Virus record (IMG/VR): IMGVR_UViG_3300038701_002738
Coordinates: 1 to 38,862 of that record
From: a virus
Reading direction: 5' to 3' (one strand)
Length of the DNA: 38,862 bases
In this document: positions 127-35,590 of the stretch, piece by piece
How the letters are laid out: the number at the start of each line of letters is the position of its first letter
How positions within the stretch are numbered: position 1 is the first letter of the stretch
Notes under the pieces: model-generated
The model's database searches: none
What the model was told of the DNA's origin: nothing
Seen by the model: the letters and a program-made list of their open reading frames with translations, nothing else
Program-made: the position numbers and the translations under genes

Positions 127-662
127 ACGTCGGCGAGCTGTTCACGCCGAGCCCGGACCCGCGCGCAAAGGTGCTGAACTGGCTCTCGGGGCTCGGTGGC
201 CCGGAGAAGGTCGCGTGGATCAACGGCGACAAGAACGGCGTCGGGTACTACCTGCTGCGGTACCTCGAGGACCAGGGGTACCGGGTGCGCGACATGCACG
301 CGCAGCACAACGCGGCGAACTCGGACCGCTTCGAGAACCAGAAGGCCGAGACCTACTGGCAGCTCCGGGAGGCGTTCGAGAAGGAGCGCATCCACGGGAT
401 CACGGACCCGAAGACGCAGAGCGAGGCGTCGACGATCAAGTGGAAGTTGCTGCCGAGCGGCAAGACCGCCATCGAGAGCAAGCCGGAGCGCGAGAAGCGG
501 GGCTTGAAGAGCCCGAACCGCCTTGAGGCGCTCGTGCTGGCGAACGCCGGGCAGGAGCGGGTGAGTCTCCGGGTGATTCTCGGGGATCTGTCTGATACAG
601 GCGCCGACGACGAGGCGCAGCACGCCCCGCCGCTGGCGGGCATTCGCCGGAAGAGGTGGTGA
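1..662 (+). CDS. terL: Terminase large subunit, C-terminal nuclease part (gene continues from window end)
   Basis: This is the 3' part of the packaging motor gene that starts at 37622. Codons run in the frame beginning at base 3 and stop at 660-662. It carries the RNase H-like nuclease that cuts concatemeric DNA at headful or unit length. The first acidic motif GLDPAGGGKDET has its aspartate at about residue 395 of the joined 591-residue protein. A second motif, WINGDKNGVGYYLL, follows, and the C-terminal acidic helix reads SPNRLEALVLA, with Glu where many relatives have Asp. The portal gene starts 2 bases downstream. Family assignment is firm; the start of this fragment is set by the contig edge. 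Confidence 0.93.
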   Translation, partial: WILAAESSDVEVRAEDPIIVGLDPAGGGKDETAAYALQGGVNVGELFTPSPDPRAKVLNWLSGLGGPEKVAWINGDKNGVGYYLLRYLEDQGYRVRDMHAQHNAANSDRFENQKAETYWQLREAFEKERIHGITDPKTQSEASTIKWKLLPSGKTAIESKPEREKRGLKSPNRLEALVLANAGQERVSLRVILGDLSDTGADDEAQHAPPLAGIRRKRW

Positions 663-664
663 CG

Positions 665-2866
665 ATGGGCAAGGTGTTGAACGCGATCTCCGGGCTCTGG
701 GGCGCGCCCGTGAAGCCCGTCAAGGTCGATGTCGACGACGAGGAGCGCCCGGGGCGCTCGGCGCTCGGCGAGCTCGGCGCGGTCGGCTCGGACATCTTCG
801 GGGGGCTGCTGCAGCAGCAGGACTACAACCCGGTGTGGTCCTACGACAACCGCTACAAGCTGATCGAGGAGATGATCGTCTCTTCTGACGTGCACTCGGC
901 GCTCGAGGCCGTGAAGGGCCCGCTGAAGTCGGCGAACTGGGAGATCGTGCCGGGCGACGAGAGCGCCGCGGCGAAGGAGGCCGCGAAGCTCGTCGAGGAG
1001 GATCTGTTCGCGAGCCCGACGCACACCTGGGAGTACGTGCTGCGTCACGCGCTGATGATGATCGAGTACGGCAACATGCTGTTCGAGAAGGTGTGGAACC
1101 TCGACGGTGAGCGCGTGAGGCTGGCGAAGCTCGCGCCGAGGTTGCCGCGCACGATCTGCGAGTATGTGATGACGGATCAAGGCGTGCTGCAGTCGGTCGT
1201 GCAGCAGGTCGGCTCGCGGTCGGACGGCCAGCCGACGCGCGTCGAGATCCCGGCGCATCGGCTGCTGCTCTTCGTGCACGACCAGCGCGGCGCGGACATG
1301 CGCGGTCGGTCGATCCTGCGCGCGGCCTACAAGCCGTGGTACATGGTCGACAAGCTCGAGATCATCGACGCGATCGGTGGCGAGAAGCACGGCATGGGCA
1401 TCGACGTGGCGTCGATCAAGTCCGGCGCGAAGGACGGCGACATCTCGGCGATCCGCGCGGCGATGCGCTCGCTCACGCACCGCGACAAGCAATACGTGAT
1501 CGAAGACCCCGAGCGGTGGACGTACCGCATCGAGACGCCGCAGGGCACGGTGCACGACGTGAAGGGCTCGGTGAAGCACCACCAGCAGAAGATCTTCCGC
1601 GCGATGTTCGCGGACTTCCTCGGGATGGGTGAGGGTCGGCTCGGGAGCCACTCGCTGAGCGAGGACAAGACCTCGATGCTGATGCTCAAGCTCGTCGGGC
1701 TCGGGCGCGACATCACGGGCACGTTCAACCGGCAGCTGATCGCGCCGTGGCACCGCTGGAACTTCGGCGACGACGTGCCGCCTCCGAAGCTCAAGCACAA
1801 CCGTCTCGACACGCGCGACCTCGTGGCGTTCGTCACGGCGCTTGCGCAGGGTGCGAACTCCGGGCTGCTCACGCCCGACGACGACCTGGAGAACGAGATC
1901 CGCGAGGCTGGCTCGATCAAGCGGAAGGAGGCGGGGCGGCCCCGGGCGAATCGCCCCGGCGGCGTGGCTCCGCGTCCCTTTCCAGGCGCCGGGCGAGGGC
2001 GGGGCTCCGAGGCTGCCGGTGTCTCGGAGGCGAGACTCGCCGGCGCCGACGTAGCGGGCGAGGAGGTCCCGTTCTCGGACCTCGAGCGGCACGTCAACTT
2101 CGCGCGGATGGAGTCGGTGCTCGACGGCGCAGAGGAGGAGGCTGTGTCGAGCGCGCGTGCGGTGCTCGAGGTCGTCATCGACGATCTGATCGGGCAGGCC
2201 GAGGAGGCGTTCGAGTCGGAGGCCGGAGGGCTGCGCGATCTCGAGTCGATCCAGCCCATCGGCGAGGACGAGCTCGAGGAAGCGATCTCGGGCGTGCTGC
2301 GCGGGCTCTACGTGCAGGGCCGCAAGGAGGTCGTCGAGGAGAGGGCGAGGCAGCGCGGGGAGACGGAGCTCGCGCTCGACGAGCCCATCGACCCGGCGGA
2401 CCTCGCGGAGATCGACGAGTACCTCGGGGTGCGCGGGCGGTCGGTCGCGGTGCGGCTGCTCGAGCGGTTCCGTGCGGCGTTCTTGCTCGAGGTCGTGCGC
2501 CAGGCGAAGGCGGGGCGCGGGCTCGAGGCGGGGCTGCTGCTCACGCTGATGCAGAACCTCGCGGACACGGAGCTGCGGAAGGACGTGCGGCTGCTGTCGA
2601 GCGAGGCGCTCGGGCTGGGGCGGCAGGCGCAGCAGAAGGAGTTCGAGGGCGGCGCGGTGGACGCGGAGCTATCGGCGCGGCTGGACAGCAACACGTGCTC
2701 ACCGTGCCGTGAGGCGAACGGGCTGCACTTCAAGCCGTTCTCTGCGGAGTACGAGGCGCACTACCCGCCGTTCAGCGACCCGAGCAAGGCGGTGTACTGC
2801 GAGGGTCGCGACCAGTGCCGGTGCCTGATGCTCGTGCGGTACGAGACCGAGCAGCCGGCCTCGTAG
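665..2866 (+). CDS. Portal protein fused to MuF-type head morphogenesis domain
   Basis: The protein has about 733 residues. The N-terminal two thirds match the Mu gp29/DUF935 portal type: an early SSDVHSALEAVKGPLKSANW segment, then GNMLFEKVWN and a DKLEIIDAIGGEKHGMG region. The C-terminal part is a MuF-like domain ending in a Cys-rich motif (NTCSPCREANG, then CEGRDQCRC), typical of minor capsid proteins that occupy the head at the portal. A low-complexity linker lies near 1920-2060. ATG 665 is preferred to GTG 656 because AGAGG lies 8 bases before it. Mu encodes the two functions as separate genes, whereas here they form one open frame. The portal forms the dodecameric DNA gate. Confidence 0.9.
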   Translation: MGKVLNAISGLWGAPVKPVKVDVDDEERPGRSALGELGAVGSDIFGGLLQQQDYNPVWSYDNRYKLIEEMIVSSDVHSALEAVKGPLKSANWEIVPGDESAAAKEAAKLVEEDLFASPTHTWEYVLRHALMMIEYGNMLFEKVWNLDGERVRLAKLAPRLPRTICEYVMTDQGVLQSVVQQVGSRSDGQPTRVEIPAHRLLLFVHDQRGADMRGRSILRAAYKPWYMVDKLEIIDAIGGEKHGMGIDVASIKSGAKDGDISAIRAAMRSLTHRDKQYVIEDPERWTYRIETPQGTVHDVKGSVKHHQQKIFRAMFADFLGMGEGRLGSHSLSEDKTSMLMLKLVGLGRDITGTFNRQLIAPWHRWNFGDDVPPPKLKHNRLDTRDLVAFVTALAQGANSGLLTPDDDLENEIREAGSIKRKEAGRPRANRPGGVAPRPFPGAGRGRGSEAAGVSEARLAGADVAGEEVPFSDLERHVNFARMESVLDGAEEEAVSSARAVLEVVIDDLIGQAEEAFESEAGGLRDLESIQPIGEDELEEAISGVLRGLYVQGRKEVVEERARQRGETELALDEPIDPADLAEIDEYLGVRGRSVAVRLLERFRAAFLLEVVRQAKAGRGLEAGLLLTLMQNLADTELRKDVRLLSSEALGLGRQAQQKEFEGGAVDAELSARLDSNTCSPCREANGLHFKPFSAEYEAHYPPFSDPSKAVYCEGRDQCRCLMLVRYETEQPAS

Positions 2867-3017
2867 CCGCGCGTGTGAGTCGATCCGCCTCGCGGGCGAC
2901 GGCGTCACACGCGCGCTTGAATGCGTCGACTGCGCTGGCAGCCGCTGGCCCAAGGGTGGCGATGGACCGGCAGGCGGCGCGCGCGAGCTCTTCGTCATAC
3001 TGCTTGAGTGACTGCAT
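2772..3017 (-). CDS. Small antisense protein, possible moron component
   Basis: This 81-residue frame starts at ATG 3017 with AGGAG seven bases upstream. The first 50 residues are helical and alanine-rich (SLKQYDEELARAACRS). The Arg/Ser/Gly-rich C-terminus is read antisense to the last 95 bases of the portal gene. It lies 62 bases downstream of the leftward membrane-protein gene, so the two probably share a transcript. I recognise no family. The good ribosome site supports the start; the overlapping tail may be an unselected read-through of portal DNA. Confidence 0.55.
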   Translation of the reverse strand: MQSLKQYDEELARAACRSIATLGPAAASAVDAFKRACDAVAREADRLTRAATRPAARSRTARASGTGTGRDPRSTPPCSGR

Positions 3018-3079
3018 GGTGTCGCTCCTGTGGTCGCGTAGGACACACGGTACGAGACCGAGGCGTCGGTGCGCTAGGG

Positions 3080-3595
3080 CTAGCGGCCCGGGATGACCCA
3101 TGCCCTGATGGCTTCTCCGCCATCGATGAATCTCACCGCGACTGTAGACCCGTCGTCTCGGTCCCAGTATCGCGTGACCACGTACGGCGCGTAGACCTTG
3201 CCGAACTGCTCTATCTGCTGCGTCTCGGTGAAGAAGAACTCGCGGCTTGACTCGCTTCCGATGATCTGAGCCGCGCGGTGCTCGGTGAGCGTCCCGAACT
3301 CCGTCTCGCGCATGATTTCCGAGAGGGCCGCTGCAGCAGCCCGCTCCTCTGCGGCTCCCGTACTGCCTATGGCGACTGCCGCGACGCAGGCCACGGGGAG
3401 GATCACGCACCCAGTCACCGCTTTGAGCCAGTTGCGCTTCCAGAAGGCCACGTTCTCGCGCCGTTTCAGGTCTTCGACGTACGCCTTCTCGAGCGCGCGC
3501 TGGCGAACGGCCCGCTTCGCGTCCCGGTGGAGCTCCTTGTCGCTGGCCCAGTCCCCTCCCTCCAGCAGGTGCGCGTAGTGCTCCTTTGGCTTCAT
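3080..3595 (-). CDS. Single-pass membrane protein, antisense in head operon (moron candidate)
   Basis: This is a 171-residue protein from ATG 3595 with GGAG seven bases before it. The order is a charged cytoplasmic N-terminus (residues 1-55, many Lys/Arg/Glu), one membrane helix (about 57-78, VTGCVILPVACVAAVAIGS), then a 90-residue extracytoplasmic domain with aromatic-rich strands (SREFFFTETQQIEQFGKVYAPYVV). The positive-inside rule gives N-in, C-out topology. It is transcribed against the head genes on both sides. That position, with its own upstream gap, is typical of prophage-expressed cargo such as superinfection exclusion proteins. The function is not recognised from sequence. Confidence 0.75.
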   Translation of the reverse strand: MKPKEHYAHLLEGGDWASDKELHRDAKRAVRQRALEKAYVEDLKRRENVAFWKRNWLKAVTGCVILPVACVAAVAIGSTGAAEERAAAAALSEIMRETEFGTLTEHRAAQIIGSESSREFFFTETQQIEQFGKVYAPYVVTRYWDRDDGSTVAVRFIDGGEAIRAWVIPGR

Positions 3596-3611
3596 GTCCG
3601 GGCTCCGGCGT

Positions 3612-3633
3612 GACTCTCTCCCCCTGGAGAGTC
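3612..3633. promoter_or_regulatory. Inverted repeat upstream of the antisense gene
   Basis: GACTCTC (3612-3618) and GAGAGTC (3627-3633) form a perfect 7 bp inverted repeat with an 8-base spacer. It lies 16 bases upstream of the leftward start at 3595. It could be an operator for the antisense pair, or a hairpin in its leader. There is no U tract to suggest a terminator. Confidence 0.4.
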
Positions 3634-3698
3634 TGCCCCACATCGGCCAACCCGGCCAGCGACTCCAAGAATCGGCCAGAAAAATCCGGGAATCGGGG

Positions 3699-3728
3699 TT
3701 GACCATAGCGGAACCCGTTGATCTAGAC
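3699..3728 (+). promoter_or_regulatory. Promoter of head genes, shared motif copy A
   Basis: TTGACC (3699-3704) is followed by 17 bases and TCTAGAC (3722-3728). The same layout, including the 11-mer TTGATCTAGAC, occurs before the TerS-like gene at 35053-35082. Two GAATCGG copies 21 bp apart (3669-3675, 3690-3696) lie just upstream of the -35 and could bind an activator. The protease gene starts 33 bases downstream with a normal ribosome site. The -10 element departs from the standard consensus, so a phage-modified or host-specific sigma factor is possible. Confidence 0.6.
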
Positions 3729-3760
3729 GCCGCCGCCCAAGGGGCAGTGGAGCGGTGCAC

Positions 3761-4948
3761 ATGGCCGATCTGGCCGTCGTCGACATCCCGGGAGTCGAGA
3801 TCCTCGCTGAGGGCAAGTGGGATGCGTCCACCGGCGAAGTCACGATCACCCGCGACGACCTCGACGCGCTCGTCGCGTCCGCTGCCGAGACCGCCGACCT
3901 CTTCGAGGCGCCGATCCGGCTCGGGCACACCGAGGACCAGAAGGTGCTCTGGGGCGACGGGCTCCCGCGCGCCGGCGTCGTGCGCAACCTGCGCCGCGTC
4001 GGCAGCAAGCTCGTCGCCGACCTCAAGAGCGTCCCGGGCAAGCTCGCCGCGCTGCTGAAGGCGGGCGCCTACGGCCCGCGCTCCTCGGGCATCTCGCGCG
4101 ACTACGAGCTGGGCGGCAAGAAGTACCCGCTCATGCTGACGCACCTGGCGCTGCTCGGTGAGCAGGCGCCGGCCGTCGCGGGGCTCAATGACCTGACGGC
4201 CCTGTTCGCAGGAGCGAGCAGCGAGCCGACCGAGTGGGTCCCCTGCGACCTCGCGCTCACGAGCGCGCCGTCGCAGCTCGCCGTCGATCTCGGCGACGTG
4301 GTGCACCGACTCGAACTTGCCGCGCACGGTCGCAAGGGGGCGCCTGCGATGCGCGCGCTCCTCTCGAAGGTGGCGGCCTCCGCGAACGACTACCTGCTCG
4401 CTGCTGGAGACGACATGGACGACGAGCGCGAAGACGAACCGAAGCCGAGGGGTGACATGCCCAGCGGCGAGAAGCCCAGGGAAGAGGAAGACGAGATGGC
4501 TCTCGAGAAGTCGCTCCGCGAGGAGCTGGGGCTGGACGAGGGTGGCGACATCCTCGCCGCCGTGAAGGCGCTGCGCTCGAAGGGCGACGCCGCCCTGTCG
4601 CGCGACGAAGAAGTCATCGCGCTCAAGGCGAAGGTCGAGGCGCTCGAGAAGAACGACGCCCGCTCTCGTGCGGAGGCGGTCGTCAACAAGCACCGCACCC
4701 GCGTTGCGCCGTCGATGCGCGACGAGTGCATCGAGTACGCGCTGTCGCACGGCGCCGAGAAGGCCGACGCCTTCTTCGCCAAGCTCCCCGAGTTCGCGAG
4801 CTCGACCGAGCTCGGCGCGGGCGGCGACCCCTCCGACGACGAGGTGAAGCTCACCGCCGCCGAGGAGCGCGTGGCGAAGCAGATGGGCCTCGACCCCGCG
4901 AAGCAGCTCGAAGCCAAGAAGGCGCTGCTCGCCTCCGCCAAGTCGTAA
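3761..4948 (+). CDS. Mu gpI-like prohead protease with C-terminal scaffold region
   Basis: The protein has 395 residues. The N-terminal half is the gpI-like maturation protease: strands at GVEILAEGKWDASTGEVTIT, then LPRAGVVRNLRR, a GPRSSGISRDYEL segment and the MLTHLALLGEQAPAV segment typical of this family. After an acidic linker (DDEREDEPKPRGD), the C-terminal third is coiled-coil and Glu/Lys-rich, as in a scaffold. The protease cuts scaffold and head proteins during prohead maturation. ATG 3761 has GGAG eight bases upstream; GTG 3755 has no usable spacing. It is the first gene after promoter copy A and is followed by the decoration and capsid genes, the usual Mu-like order. Confidence 0.85.
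   Translation: MADLAVVDIPGVEILAEGKWDASTGEVTITRDDLDALVASAAETADLFEAPIRLGHTEDQKVLWGDGLPRAGVVRNLRRVGSKLVADLKSVPGKLAALLKAGAYGPRSSGISRDYELGGKKYPLMLTHLALLGEQAPAVAGLNDLTALFAGASSEPTEWVPCDLALTSAPSQLAVDLGDVVHRLELAAHGRKGAPAMRALLSKVAASANDYLLAAGDDMDDEREDEPKPRGDMPSGEKPREEEDEMALEKSLREELGLDEGGDILAAVKALRSKGDAALSRDEEVIALKAKVEALEKNDARSRAEAVVNKHRTRVAPSMRDECIEYALSHGAEKADAFFAKLPEFASSTELGAGGDPSDDEVKLTAAEERVAKQMGLDPAKQLEAKKALLASAKS
4496..4948 (+). CDS. Nested scaffold protein from an internal start (Mu gpZ analogue)
   Basis: An in-frame ATG at 4496 within the protease gene is preceded by AGGGAAGAGG, whose GAGG lies eight bases before it. Translation from there gives a 150-residue protein, MALEKSLREELG and onward, that is almost wholly helical and charged. 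In Mu, the scaffold Z is made from an internal start in the protease gene I. The position at the boundary between protease and coiled coil fits the same arrangement. Use of this start is inferred. Confidence 0.5.
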   Translation: MALEKSLREELGLDEGGDILAAVKALRSKGDAALSRDEEVIALKAKVEALEKNDARSRAEAVVNKHRTRVAPSMRDECIEYALSHGAEKADAFFAKLPEFASSTELGAGGDPSDDEVKLTAAEERVAKQMGLDPAKQLEAKKALLASAKS

Positions 4949-4969
4949 CCCGAGGACAAGGAACAAGCC

Positions 4970-5401
4970 ATGACGGCACTCTCCGCAGACCGCAAGGTCA
5001 CCGTGCGCGGGCAGGTCACGATCACGAGCTACCTCGTGGCGGCCAGCACCACGCTCTACAAGGGCGGGCTCGTCGCGATCAACGCGGCCGGCTACGCCGT
5101 TCCCGCCGCCGACACCTCCGGCCTGATCGTGGTCGGTGTCGCGCAGCAGAAGTACGACAACTCGTCGGGCGCGAACGGCGCCATCCGCTGCCAGGTGGAG
5201 AGCGACGCGCTCTTCCTCATGGGTGCGACTTCCATCGCCCAGGCCGCAGTGCCCGAGGTCATGTACGTCGCCGACGACCAGACCGTCGACGAGACCGACC
5301 CCGGCAACAGCGTGATCGCCGGGAAGCTGACCGAAGTGGTGAGCGCGACCTCGGGGTGGGTGTACATCCCGGGTCACGGCCGCACCAAGGAACTCACGTA
5401 A
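4970..5401 (+). CDS. Head decoration (capsid cement) protein
   Basis: This 143-residue, beta-rich protein lies between the protease/scaffold and the capsid genes, where lambda gpD-type or DUF2190-type cement proteins sit. The Gly/Val-rich N-terminal arm (ADRKVTVRGQVTITSYLVA), AAGYAVPAADTSGLIVVGVA and DGQ-less beta strands fit that class. It would bind the expanded capsid lattice to stabilise it against DNA pressure. AAGGA lies seven bases before the ATG. The family is inferred from position and fold-like pattern. Confidence 0.7.
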   Translation: MTALSADRKVTVRGQVTITSYLVAASTTLYKGGLVAINAAGYAVPAADTSGLIVVGVAQQKYDNSSGANGAIRCQVESDALFLMGATSIAQAAVPEVMYVADDQTVDETDPGNSVIAGKLTEVVSATSGWVYIPGHGRTKELT

Positions 5402-5413
5402 GGAGCGGCTGAC

Positions 5414-6364
5414 ATGGCCATCGTTTCACCGGACACCCTCGCAGCGGTCCGCACGAACTTCCAGCTGCTCTTCGCCAGCGAGTTCGCGGCGAAGGACGCC
5501 CAGCAGGGCTGGCGTGACTTCACGTCGGAGATGCCGAGCAACGCAGAGGTCGAGTCCTACAACTGGCTCGGCGTGCCCCCGCAGATGCAGGACACGACCC
5601 ACAAGCCGCTCGACCTGAGCGACCTGGAGGGCTTCAACTATTCGATCACGAACGCCACCTACCAGGCGGCGCTTCGGATCAAGCGCGAGGCCATCGAGGA
5701 CGACAAGCTCGGGCAGATCTCGCCGCGCGTGTCGCAGCTCGCCGAGGAGGCCGCGGCGCACCCGGGCCGACTCGTGCTGAGCCTGCTCGAGAGCAACCCC
5801 ACGGCCTACGACGGCGTGGCGTTCTTCTCGAACTCGCACACGAACGGCGACGGCGAGACGGTCGACAACACGCTCACGGCGACGGTGTCGAGCCTGAGCG
5901 CGGTGACGATCTCCGAGATGCAGGACGCCATCGACGAGGCCCGCGCGACGATGCAGCTCTTCCAGGATCGCCAGGGCCGCCCGATGGGCAAGGTCCCGGA
6001 CACCTGGGTCTGCTCGCCGCAGCGCGCGCCGCTGCTCTACCGCGCGCTGAATGGTGCGGGCACGCCCGGCTCCGTGTCGCCGATGCTGCCGGTCTCCGCG
6101 AACGGCATCATCAGCGTGGGCACCTACAAGATCTTCACGAACGTCCTCTCGACGAACGCGAACGTCATGTACGGCCTGCACACCACGAGTTCGGTGAAGC
6201 CGCTGATCTTCCAGAACCGGCTCGCGCCGTCGATGGAGTCGGTCAACTCGCCGGACTCCGAGAGCGCGATCCTGCGGAACGAGTTCATCGAGGCGGTGCG
6301 CGCCCGTCGCGCTGCCGGCGTCGGTGACTACACCAGCGCGATCCAGCTCACGCTCTCCGAGTAA
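5414..6364 (+). CDS. Major capsid protein, Mu gpT-like
   Basis: The 316-residue protein has features of the Mu gpT major head subunit: an N-terminal ATLAAVRTNFQLLF-like arm (here DTLAAVRTNFQLLFASEF), a WRDFTSEMPSNAEVESYNWLG stretch, and ALRIKREAIEDDKLGQ. A later DGVAFFSNSHTNGDGETVDN loop and KVPDTWVCSPQ follow. It assembles the icosahedral shell and would adopt the HK97 fold. The order decoration-capsid after the protease is standard. The start has GGAG 9 bases upstream. Confidence 0.9.
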   Translation: MAIVSPDTLAAVRTNFQLLFASEFAAKDAQQGWRDFTSEMPSNAEVESYNWLGVPPQMQDTTHKPLDLSDLEGFNYSITNATYQAALRIKREAIEDDKLGQISPRVSQLAEEAAAHPGRLVLSLLESNPTAYDGVAFFSNSHTNGDGETVDNTLTATVSSLSAVTISEMQDAIDEARATMQLFQDRQGRPMGKVPDTWVCSPQRAPLLYRALNGAGTPGSVSPMLPVSANGIISVGTYKIFTNVLSTNANVMYGLHTTSSVKPLIFQNRLAPSMESVNSPDSESAILRNEFIEAVRARRAAGVGDYTSAIQLTLSE

Positions 6365-33593: not shown

Positions 33594-34466
33594 CTACGCG
33601 CCGGGGTGACTCTCCAGGTGCGCTGCGCGCAAGAACCTCTGCGACACCGCCACGTAGCCCTGCGTCGTCCCTAGGTCCGCGTGCCCGAGCAGCTCCTGCA
33701 CCACCCGCACGTCGGCCTTGTGCTCGAGCATGTGCGTCGCGCAACTGTGCCGCAGCGAGTGCGCCGTCGCGTCCGGCATCCCCGCCGCATCGAACGTCGC
33801 CCGCAGGCAGCGGCTCATGCCGCTCTTCCGCAGCTGCGCGCCCGTTTTCCCGATGAACACCCAGCTCGACAGCCGCCCGGCCTGCGCGAGCTGCTCCCGG
33901 CGCACCTCGAGCCACTCCCGCAGCGCAGCCCACGCCTTCGGGCCGATCGGGATGACGCGCTCCTTCTCGCCCTTCCCGAGCACCCGCATCAGCCCGCTTT
34001 CCAGGTCCACGTCCTCGAGCCGAAGCCCGAGGAGCTCCGAGATCCGCGCCCCCGTCGAGTACGCGACCCGCACGAACGCCAGTGTCCGCCGCGCGACGAA
34101 GCCCTCGCCCCGCTCCGCCACCTCGAAGAGCGCCGCGACCTGCGCCTCGGTCAGAGGCCTCGGGACGCGCCGGCGCTTCTTGGGGGCCCTCAAGCGCGCC
34201 GTGGGGTCGTCCTGTCGCAACTTCGACTCGACGGCCCAGCGGAAGTACCCACGGAGCGCAGAGAGGCGCCTCGCGGTCGTCGCGGCCTTCACGTCGTCCC
34301 GCATGAGCCAGCCCTCGAGCTCGACCCGCGTGCACGCCTCCATCGACGACCCGCGCTCCCGGATCCAGCAGCGCAGCAGCATCAGGTCCGACCTGTAGGC
34401 GGCGATCGTCGCCGGCGACAGCCTTGCTGCGCGCAAGTGGCGCAGGTACTCCGAAACCTTGCCCAT
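33594..34466 (-). CDS. int: Tyrosine recombinase / integrase, Xer-like
   Basis: The protein has 290 residues, the normal length of XerC/D-type recombinases. It has an N-terminal SAM-like core-binding domain (KVSEYLRHLRAARLSPATIA) and a catalytic domain. The full set is present: R141 (GARISELLGL), K165 (GKGEKER), H236 and R239 (HSLRH), H262 (LLGHADLGTTQ) and Y271. ATG 34466 has GGGAG six bases upstream; longer frames to 35048 run into the attP region. It lacks a separate arm-binding domain. It catalyses integration, and the rnpB-like segment upstream is the likely site. Confidence 0.93.
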   Translation of the reverse strand: MGKVSEYLRHLRAARLSPATIAAYRSDLMLLRCWIRERGSSMEACTRVELEGWLMRDDVKAATTARRLSALRGYFRWAVESKLRQDDPTARLRAPKKRRRVPRPLTEAQVAALFEVAERGEGFVARRTLAFVRVAYSTGARISELLGLRLEDVDLESGLMRVLGKGEKERVIPIGPKAWAALREWLEVRREQLAQAGRLSSWVFIGKTGAQLRKSGMSRCLRATFDAAGMPDATAHSLRHSCATHMLEHKADVRVVQELLGHADLGTTQGYVAVSQRFLRAAHLESHPGA

Positions 34467-34631
34467 CCTCGGCTCCCGAACCGACCCGTCCTCTCCGGTG
34501 AGAATAACGCGTCGATTCCATGAGGGCGACGCGGCGGGCGAAGTACCCATCCGGGCGGCGGCTCCGTCCATCGCGGCTTCCTCGTGGGCTCGGCATGGGC
34601 CAGGTGGGCTCCGGTCGTCGTGACCGCCCGC

Positions 34632-34720
34632 CGAGTTCTGTTGCGGCGACGTAACGCGCACCGTCCCTGCCGAAGTGAGATCCCCAGTCGCCCTGTAAGC
34701 CGGGTTCTGTCGCGGCTGAC
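34632..34720. repeat. Imperfect direct repeat around attP
   Basis: CGAGTTCTGTTGCGGC at 34632-34647 and CGGGTTCTGTCGCGGC at 34701-34716 agree at 14 of 16 bases, 69 bp apart. The second copy is part of the rnpB-like segment. Repeats of this size at attP are typical recombinase or accessory-factor sites. Confidence 0.55.
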
Positions 34721-34760
34721 TGGCGAGGGGCTCGATCACTCTGGCCTGGGGAGGCCGCGC
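34690..34760 (-). other. attP candidate: 3' end of rnpB (RNase P RNA) homology
   Basis: On the minus strand, 34710-34696 reads ACAGAACCCGGCTTA, the highly conserved 3' segment of bacterial RNase P RNA. Flanking bases stay similar in layout (GTGATCGAGC and CGACAGAACCC before it, CAGGGCGACTGG after it). The 5' conserved region of rnpB is absent, so this is only the tail of the gene. It lies 230 bases upstream of the integrase start, in the same orientation. Integrases commonly use RNA-gene 3' ends and rebuild them on insertion, so this is the likely attP core. Its exact limits need the host sequence. Confidence 0.7.
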
Positions 34761-35052
34761 CACGTCGCCACCGAGCAGCGCCCGGAAGGCGTCGTAGCTG
34801 TTCTGCATCGCACTGGATTCCATCCCAACCGCTGCGACGCAACCAACGCCGCACAGTGAGCCTACAACAAGCTCAACCGTCAAGCCCGCACTTCGGACTG
34901 CGCGTTCCCGGCACATCGTTCCAAATGCATGCCGCACCGATACCGCCAGCGAACGCACAAATCCTCGCGCGCAACTTTTCTCACACTTTCTGTCGTGCCC
35001 TCCCGTCCGACCCCATCCCAGCGCCCCGCCGCCGGGAATCTCGCGCACTCCC
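34761..35052. other. Gene-free region between attP and TerS promoter
   Basis: No gene is supported here; frames on both strands lack ribosome sites and family features. The stretch 34960-35010 is locally less GC-rich. Integrase promoter and further recombinase sites may lie here, but I cannot define them. Confidence 0.5.
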
Positions 35053-35089: not shown

Positions 35090-35590
35090 ATGGCTAGCGA
35101 GGAAGCCACCGACTCAGCCCTCACCCCCTACGTCCCCGAGCACCGCCAGGTCGCTCGCGGCGGGCAGGACGAGCACCTCTGCCTCGTGAACCCCTGGCTG
35201 CCCTCCGAGGTCGCCGCACAGCTCGCCTCCGGCATGCCCATGGGCCTCGCCGTCGCACTCTTCGGCGTGCACCCACGCACCGCACAGAAGTGGCTCGAGA
35301 AGGGCGCCGCCTCCGACGACCCGACCGACCCGAATCGCGCCTTCTTCCTCATCACCACCGCCGCGAAGGCCGAGTTCGTCCGCGCCGCCCTCCGCCGCAT
35401 CCGCACGAAGTCCGGAGAGCGCGACGCCGGCCGCGAGGCCACCTCCCACCCCGGCGACTGGAAGGCCGAGCTCACCGTGCTCGAGCGACTCTGCCCCGAG
35501 TACTTCGCCAAGCAGACCGTCCTCACCACCTCCACCGCCGCCGGCCGCCTACCCTTCGACGCCATCGACCCCTCGATCCCCAGGGACTGA
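35090..35590 (+). CDS. terS: Terminase small subunit-like protein
   Basis: The 166-residue protein has an HTH at about residues 45-75 (QLASGMPMGLAVALFGVHPR, TAQKWLEKG), a helical middle (RAFFLITTAAKAEFVRAALR) and GDWKAELTVLERLCPEYFAK. That W.A....LER..P..F pattern is common in small-terminase-like phage proteins that recognise the packaging site. The ATG appears leaderless. Its plus-strand codons are C-rich, unlike the G-rich late genes. Confidence 0.7.
   Translation: MASEEATDSALTPYVPEHRQVARGGQDEHLCLVNPWLPSEVAAQLASGMPMGLAVALFGVHPRTAQKWLEKGAASDDPTDPNRAFFLITTAAKAEFVRAALRRIRTKSGERDAGREATSHPGDWKAELTVLERLCPEYFAKQTVLTTSTAAGRLPFDAIDPSIPRD

Follow-up and report, generated by a model that had tools for sequence, protein, structure and literature searches.

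A putative phage attachment site matching the 3' end of a planctomycete RNase P RNA gene

Upstream of its tyrosine integrase gene, a phage genome carries 38 bases that are identical to the 3' end of a bacterial RNase P RNA gene (rnpB) and the bases just beyond it. We consider it about 90% probable that these bases serve a temperate phage as its attP core, and that its integrase recombines attP with the rnpB 3' end in the host and keeps the RNase P RNA intact. The observations behind this reading are an identity block with exact edges, an adjoining integrase gene, a host gene that is restored when the two parts are joined in silico, and counterparts of this arrangement that were seen both free and integrated in other elements. 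tRNA and tmRNA genes are favoured landing sites of phages, and RNase P RNA is encoded by an essential, nearly universal ribozyme gene. All coordinates below are numbered on the window, that is, the whole 38,862-nt stretch analysed.

34673 to 34710, minus strand: attP identity block, matching the rnpB 3' end of DHS20C15 (locus L009, genome G001) at 38/38 bases, with a covariance model match at 34680-34723.
34467 to 34853, minus strand: non-coding leader that holds attP, with a GC3 of 0.74 in the integrase frame versus 0.92-0.95 in the phage genes.
33594 to 34466, minus strand: XerC/XerD-like tyrosine integrase of 290 aa (Pfam PF00589 and PF02899; TIGR02224), with a GC3 of 0.94 counted from the ATG at 34466.

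The block, read from 34710 to 34673 on the minus strand, is ACAGAACCCGGCTTACAGGGCGACTGGGGATCTCACTT. It comprises the 3' strand of helix P4 and that of helix P1 in RNase P RNA, followed by a few bases beyond the mature 3' end. Its first 15 bases (34696-34710) are the 3' signature that is conserved among bacterial RNase P RNAs, as the first-pass annotation had recognised, and they form the sole match in the window at two or fewer mismatches, with a chance expectation of 0.01. The last positions of the class A model RNaseP_bact_a of Rfam aligned to 34680-34723 on the minus strand (25.2 bits, E value of 7.5e-8 for this record). The 5' nine-tenths of rnpB are missing from the phage copy, again as had been noted, and the Rfam search of the window returned no match at the gathering score, indicating that there is no full-length rnpB in it. 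That annotation had placed the resemblance at 34690-34760 with rnpB-like bases around the signature; the observation was real, with the coordinates shifted. The likeness continues downstream of the 15-mer to 34673, while 34711-34760 holds no rnpB-like sequence.

Comparison with bacterial rnpB genes carried the match well past the 15-mer. A genome scan with a 25-base piece of the block hit five loci, and at one of them, the rnpB of the uncultured Planctomycetota bacterium DHS20C15, the match extended to all 38 bases. Within the class of this bacterium, 11 of 13 rnpB genes were alignable at the motif, namely that of DHS20C15 itself and ten others, which shared 21-24 of the 38 bases. An rnpB on a misplaced contig (L010) reached 36/38. 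This small contig, JAJFHW010000385.1, gives a metagenome-assembled genome labelled Hyphomicrobiales (G002) a second rnpB of planctomycete type, and is probably misbinned there. Both edges of the block were sharp: towards the 5' side of rnpB the identity ended exactly at the first A of ACAGAAC, and at the other edge it ended just beyond the RNA end. When the host rnpB up to this first A was fused in silico to the 38 phage bases, the native 400-nt gene was restored exactly, and helix P1 of the hybrid RNA paired fully. Judged from these 38 bases, the host would be close to DHS20C15, which bears out the expectation that the site might reveal it.

The integrase, already noticed as Xer-like, is of XerC/XerD size, and from its ATG at 34466 the distance to the block lying upstream of it is 206 bp rather than the 230 bases first given. 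Its only domains are a SAM-like core-binding domain (PF02899) and a catalytic domain (PF00589), without an arm-binding domain. The nearest curated model is XerC (TIGR02224), which it matched with 267 bits against a cut-off of 335; for the XerD model the values were 251 and 330 bits. The protein resembles the Xer recombinases in size and domains, and it shares 36-42% identity with its best Xer-type homologues from the host class. It differs from them in being phage-borne, in staying under both cut-offs and in having the rnpB end instead of dif as its putative site. Among 392 sampled Planctomycetota genomes, no integrase was more than 39% identical to it at the cut-off used. The integrase frame remains open across the 387-bp leader, and we considered an integrase gene that starts further upstream and crosses attP, an arrangement that occurs in phages whose attP is intragenic; this was rejected on the leader's GC3.

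Two short repeats lie in the leader.

34699 to 34716, minus strand: 18-nt crossover-like unit GCCGCGACAGAACCCGGC, one copy of direct repeat D1, composed of 6 phage bases and 12 rnpB bases across the left edge of the block.
34630 to 34647, minus strand: second copy of the unit, GCCGCAACAGAACTCGGC (16/18, from repeat comparison), with an inferred function.

Written out for the proposed mechanism, the unit at the left edge is GCCGCRACAGAACYCGGC. Its six-base outer arms are near inverted repeats flanking ACAGAA, a pattern that may fit a Xer-type core site. The second copy lies 69 bp closer to the integrase and lacks the remaining rnpB sequence; it could serve the recombinase as a second site or be left over from an earlier att.

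We propose that the integrase would pair attP with the rnpB 3' end and exchange strands at or just after ACAGAAC, a position we infer because the left edge of the identity lies there. Integration would then join the 5' nine-tenths of the host rnpB to the 38-nt phage copy, which would supply the 3' strand of each of the helices P4 and P1, giving a complete RNase P RNA. The native 3' end of the host gene would be shifted to the far end of the prophage. Without the 38-nt copy, integration would sever an essential gene. Identity with the end of an RNA gene of the host and a tyrosine integrase gene next to the block are among the features of a gene-restoring attP. Together with the free and integrated forms of unrelated elements, they support the first-pass proposal of an attP aimed at rnpB, and this particular phage would accordingly form lysogens.

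At the DHS20C15 locus the site is empty. The search revealed no lysogen of this phage or of a close relative, and none of the 392 sampled Planctomycetota genomes carried a second exact rnpB 3' motif, which is weak evidence given that only 73 of them match the motif at all. Similarly, no two-copy genome was seen among 396 Actinomycetota, of which only 53 match the exact motif, and this too is weak evidence. Prophages that split and rebuild rnpB had been suggested as a check; integrated forms with an intact rnpB were found for unrelated elements, including inserts with both ends in complete E. coli genomes, and none for this phage.

The window contains genes for a portal, a head protease, a head protein, a tape measure, an exonuclease and a small terminase, and we therefore regard it as a tailed phage. 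Three of these are placed as follows.

35090 to 35590, plus strand: terminase small subunit (phrog_4102).
656 to 2866, plus strand: portal protein (PF06074, phrog_113).
5414 to 6364, plus strand: Mu gpT-like major head protein (PF10124, phrog_371).

Mu-like portal and gpT-like head genes (656-6364) thus occur alongside a tyrosine integrase in one phage. No close viral relatives were found among the viral contigs through the integrase or the portal, and the head-protein homologues in Planctomycetota were distant only (at most 32% identity).

In E. coli, islands at rnpB were observed in integrated form. In strain Z1323CEC0007 (L176), rnpB is intact and an integrase gene lies 277 bp beyond it on the same strand. 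About 6 kb further, before yhaC, there is a displaced 20-nt copy, CTTATCGGTCAGTTTCACCT, followed by sequence near the native downstream stretch. In strain YZ22PE67 (L177) the island has the same ends and measures about 8 kb, and O157:H7 strain PV15-279 (L175) has the native arrangement with no insert. The island integrase (WP_089597294.1 / WP_000737208.1) was detected in 12 of 5426 genomes, and in 11 of these the match covered at least 80% of the query. These islands use the target proposed for our phage, rnpB, likewise have an integrase beside it, and leave the gene restored. They differ in that their integrase is unrelated (25% over 162 aa) and in being small (about 6 and 8 kb) and not a phage genome. 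Their sub-site is different as well: the E. coli identity block (CTTATCGG...) begins about 11 nt further on than that of the planctomycete, and the elements therefore use more than a single sub-site within rnpB.

A 66-nt query of the rnpB 3' end gave lower-coverage matches in about 670 E. coli genomes. As the island integrase occurs in only 12 genomes, we rejected these matches as occupied sites; of two inspected, H55 had no integrase at rnpB and H56 had the island. The rnpB 3'-end query matches up to eight places per E. coli genome. In this species, tandem repeats of about 113 bp that each contain the last rnpB bases come after the gene (L175:5000-5200, L177:22708-22960), and these repeats could be extra attB sites or att remnants.

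Scans of viral contigs with ACAGAAYCCGGCTTAYNG gave 60 loci. Most held a complete rnpB, in many cases as part of a tRNA array, and had no integrase at the junction. Complete copies in tRNA arrays were set aside as a different phenomenon; among them, the large phages L002, L003, L004, L006, L017, L030 and L032 carry a complete or reduced rnpB within long tRNA arrays, and in Microbacterium phage A3Wally an unannotated rnpB (L112:2242-2603) lies between two tRNA-Pro genes (record 93852-94072). Acinetobacter-type prophages beside coaD-fdx-rnpB (L013, L014, L024, L025, L029, L034, L036, L037 and L113) were rejected as 3'-end cases, their integrase being about 1.1 kb away on the 5' side of rnpB. Two further contigs, L019 and L129, were rejected as chance motif matches, and in L134 the contig breaks off at the locus.

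Only the 3' end of rnpB is present in L026, L043 and L149, each with a tyrosine integrase about 20-170 bp away, and a fourth such case, L157, was found through its integrase. In L020, L139 and L132, rnpB runs to a convergent integrase, the stop codon of which lies 15-31 bp past the RNA end; the L139 contig starts inside rnpB, and L135 retains an integrase remnant at the junction. Of these, L020, L135, L139 and L157, together with L137, form a group with partly homologous DNA and related integrases, which are 45-95% identical where aligned, the comparison for L137 covering its last 20 residues only. Downstream of ACAGAA, all five enter the integrase end. Upstream of it there is phage sequence in L137 and L157 and rnpB in L020, L135 and L139, and this is a switch from attP to attL. 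L137, in the attP state, and L135 and L139, in the attL state, are homologous phages that differ on the upstream side of the junction. Based on the resemblance of their rnpB end to L008, this group is probably of actinobacterial type.

The integrases of the window, L026, L043, L132, the L020 group and the E. coli islands shared less than 30% pairwise identity over long alignments, indicating that at least six lineages converge on the rnpB end; the window and L149 integrases were 29.5% identical. Two layouts were seen, with the integrase reading away from rnpB (the window, L149 and E. coli) or convergent with it (the others). We lean towards the view that the rnpB 3' end constitutes a general class of attachment site on chromosomes, at which these lineages arrived independently in several phyla (Planctomycetota, E. 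coli and, judged from sequences, probably Actinomycetota and Clostridia). Such a class would be uncatalogued because island surveys sort targets as tRNA/tmRNA, protein gene or intergenic.

Other explanations of the block were weighed. As the window is GC-rich, the match might be due to chance or to a coding coincidence; the integrase frame is open across the block, and chance motif matches did occur in L019 and L129. However, the longest chance match to any piece of the 38-mer was 16 nt in 200 Markov-shuffled windows, and GC3 marks the region as non-coding; the length and edges of the identity refute this explanation, to which we assign a negligible probability. The block might also be transcribed as a copy of the rnpB 3' end that binds or diverts the host RNase P or its protein, and it does include a P1 strand and the conserved P4 strand. 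Yet most of rnpB is missing, the match extends beyond the mature RNA end, and the genuine fragment-only copies in unrelated elements all adjoin integrases, which makes such mimicry very improbable.

Somewhat less remote, though still improbable, is a relic: the phage or an ancestor would have gained the rnpB end through recombination or an imprecise excision, and would now integrate elsewhere or nowhere. The lack of an integrated copy in the sampled Planctomycetota fits this history, as does the nearby diverged 18-nt repeat, which could be an older att remnant. Against it, all 38 bases are identical, both edges are sharp with no decay, and the block adjoins an apparently intact integrase. We therefore favour a functional attP.

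Gene-restoring integration into tRNA and tmRNA genes has long been known (PMC4383910). In the TIGER/Islander survey, targets were tRNA or tmRNA genes (33.8%), protein genes (43.4%) and intergenic sites (22.8%), with no class of its own for rnpB (PMC12424338). Like the RNA-gene elements in that survey, the present one has the 3' end of a structural RNA gene copied next to its integrase, and it would likewise split and restore the gene and displace the native end; the difference is the target, rnpB. We found no description of rnpB as an attachment site in the open-access literature, where an earlier mention is possible (e.g., Mageeney et al. 2020). The principle of integration at RNA-gene 3' ends is thus known, and the target appears to be new as far as we found.

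As a target, rnpB would widen the tRNA/tmRNA rule and offer a test of ideas on why RNA-gene ends serve as sites. An rnpB core could also be a handle for host prediction in uncultured phages, here indicating one planctomycete lineage. Island surveys should inspect rnpB, since the present target classes would conceal such elements. If our reading is true, every integration and excision at rnpB would make and break an essential ribozyme gene.
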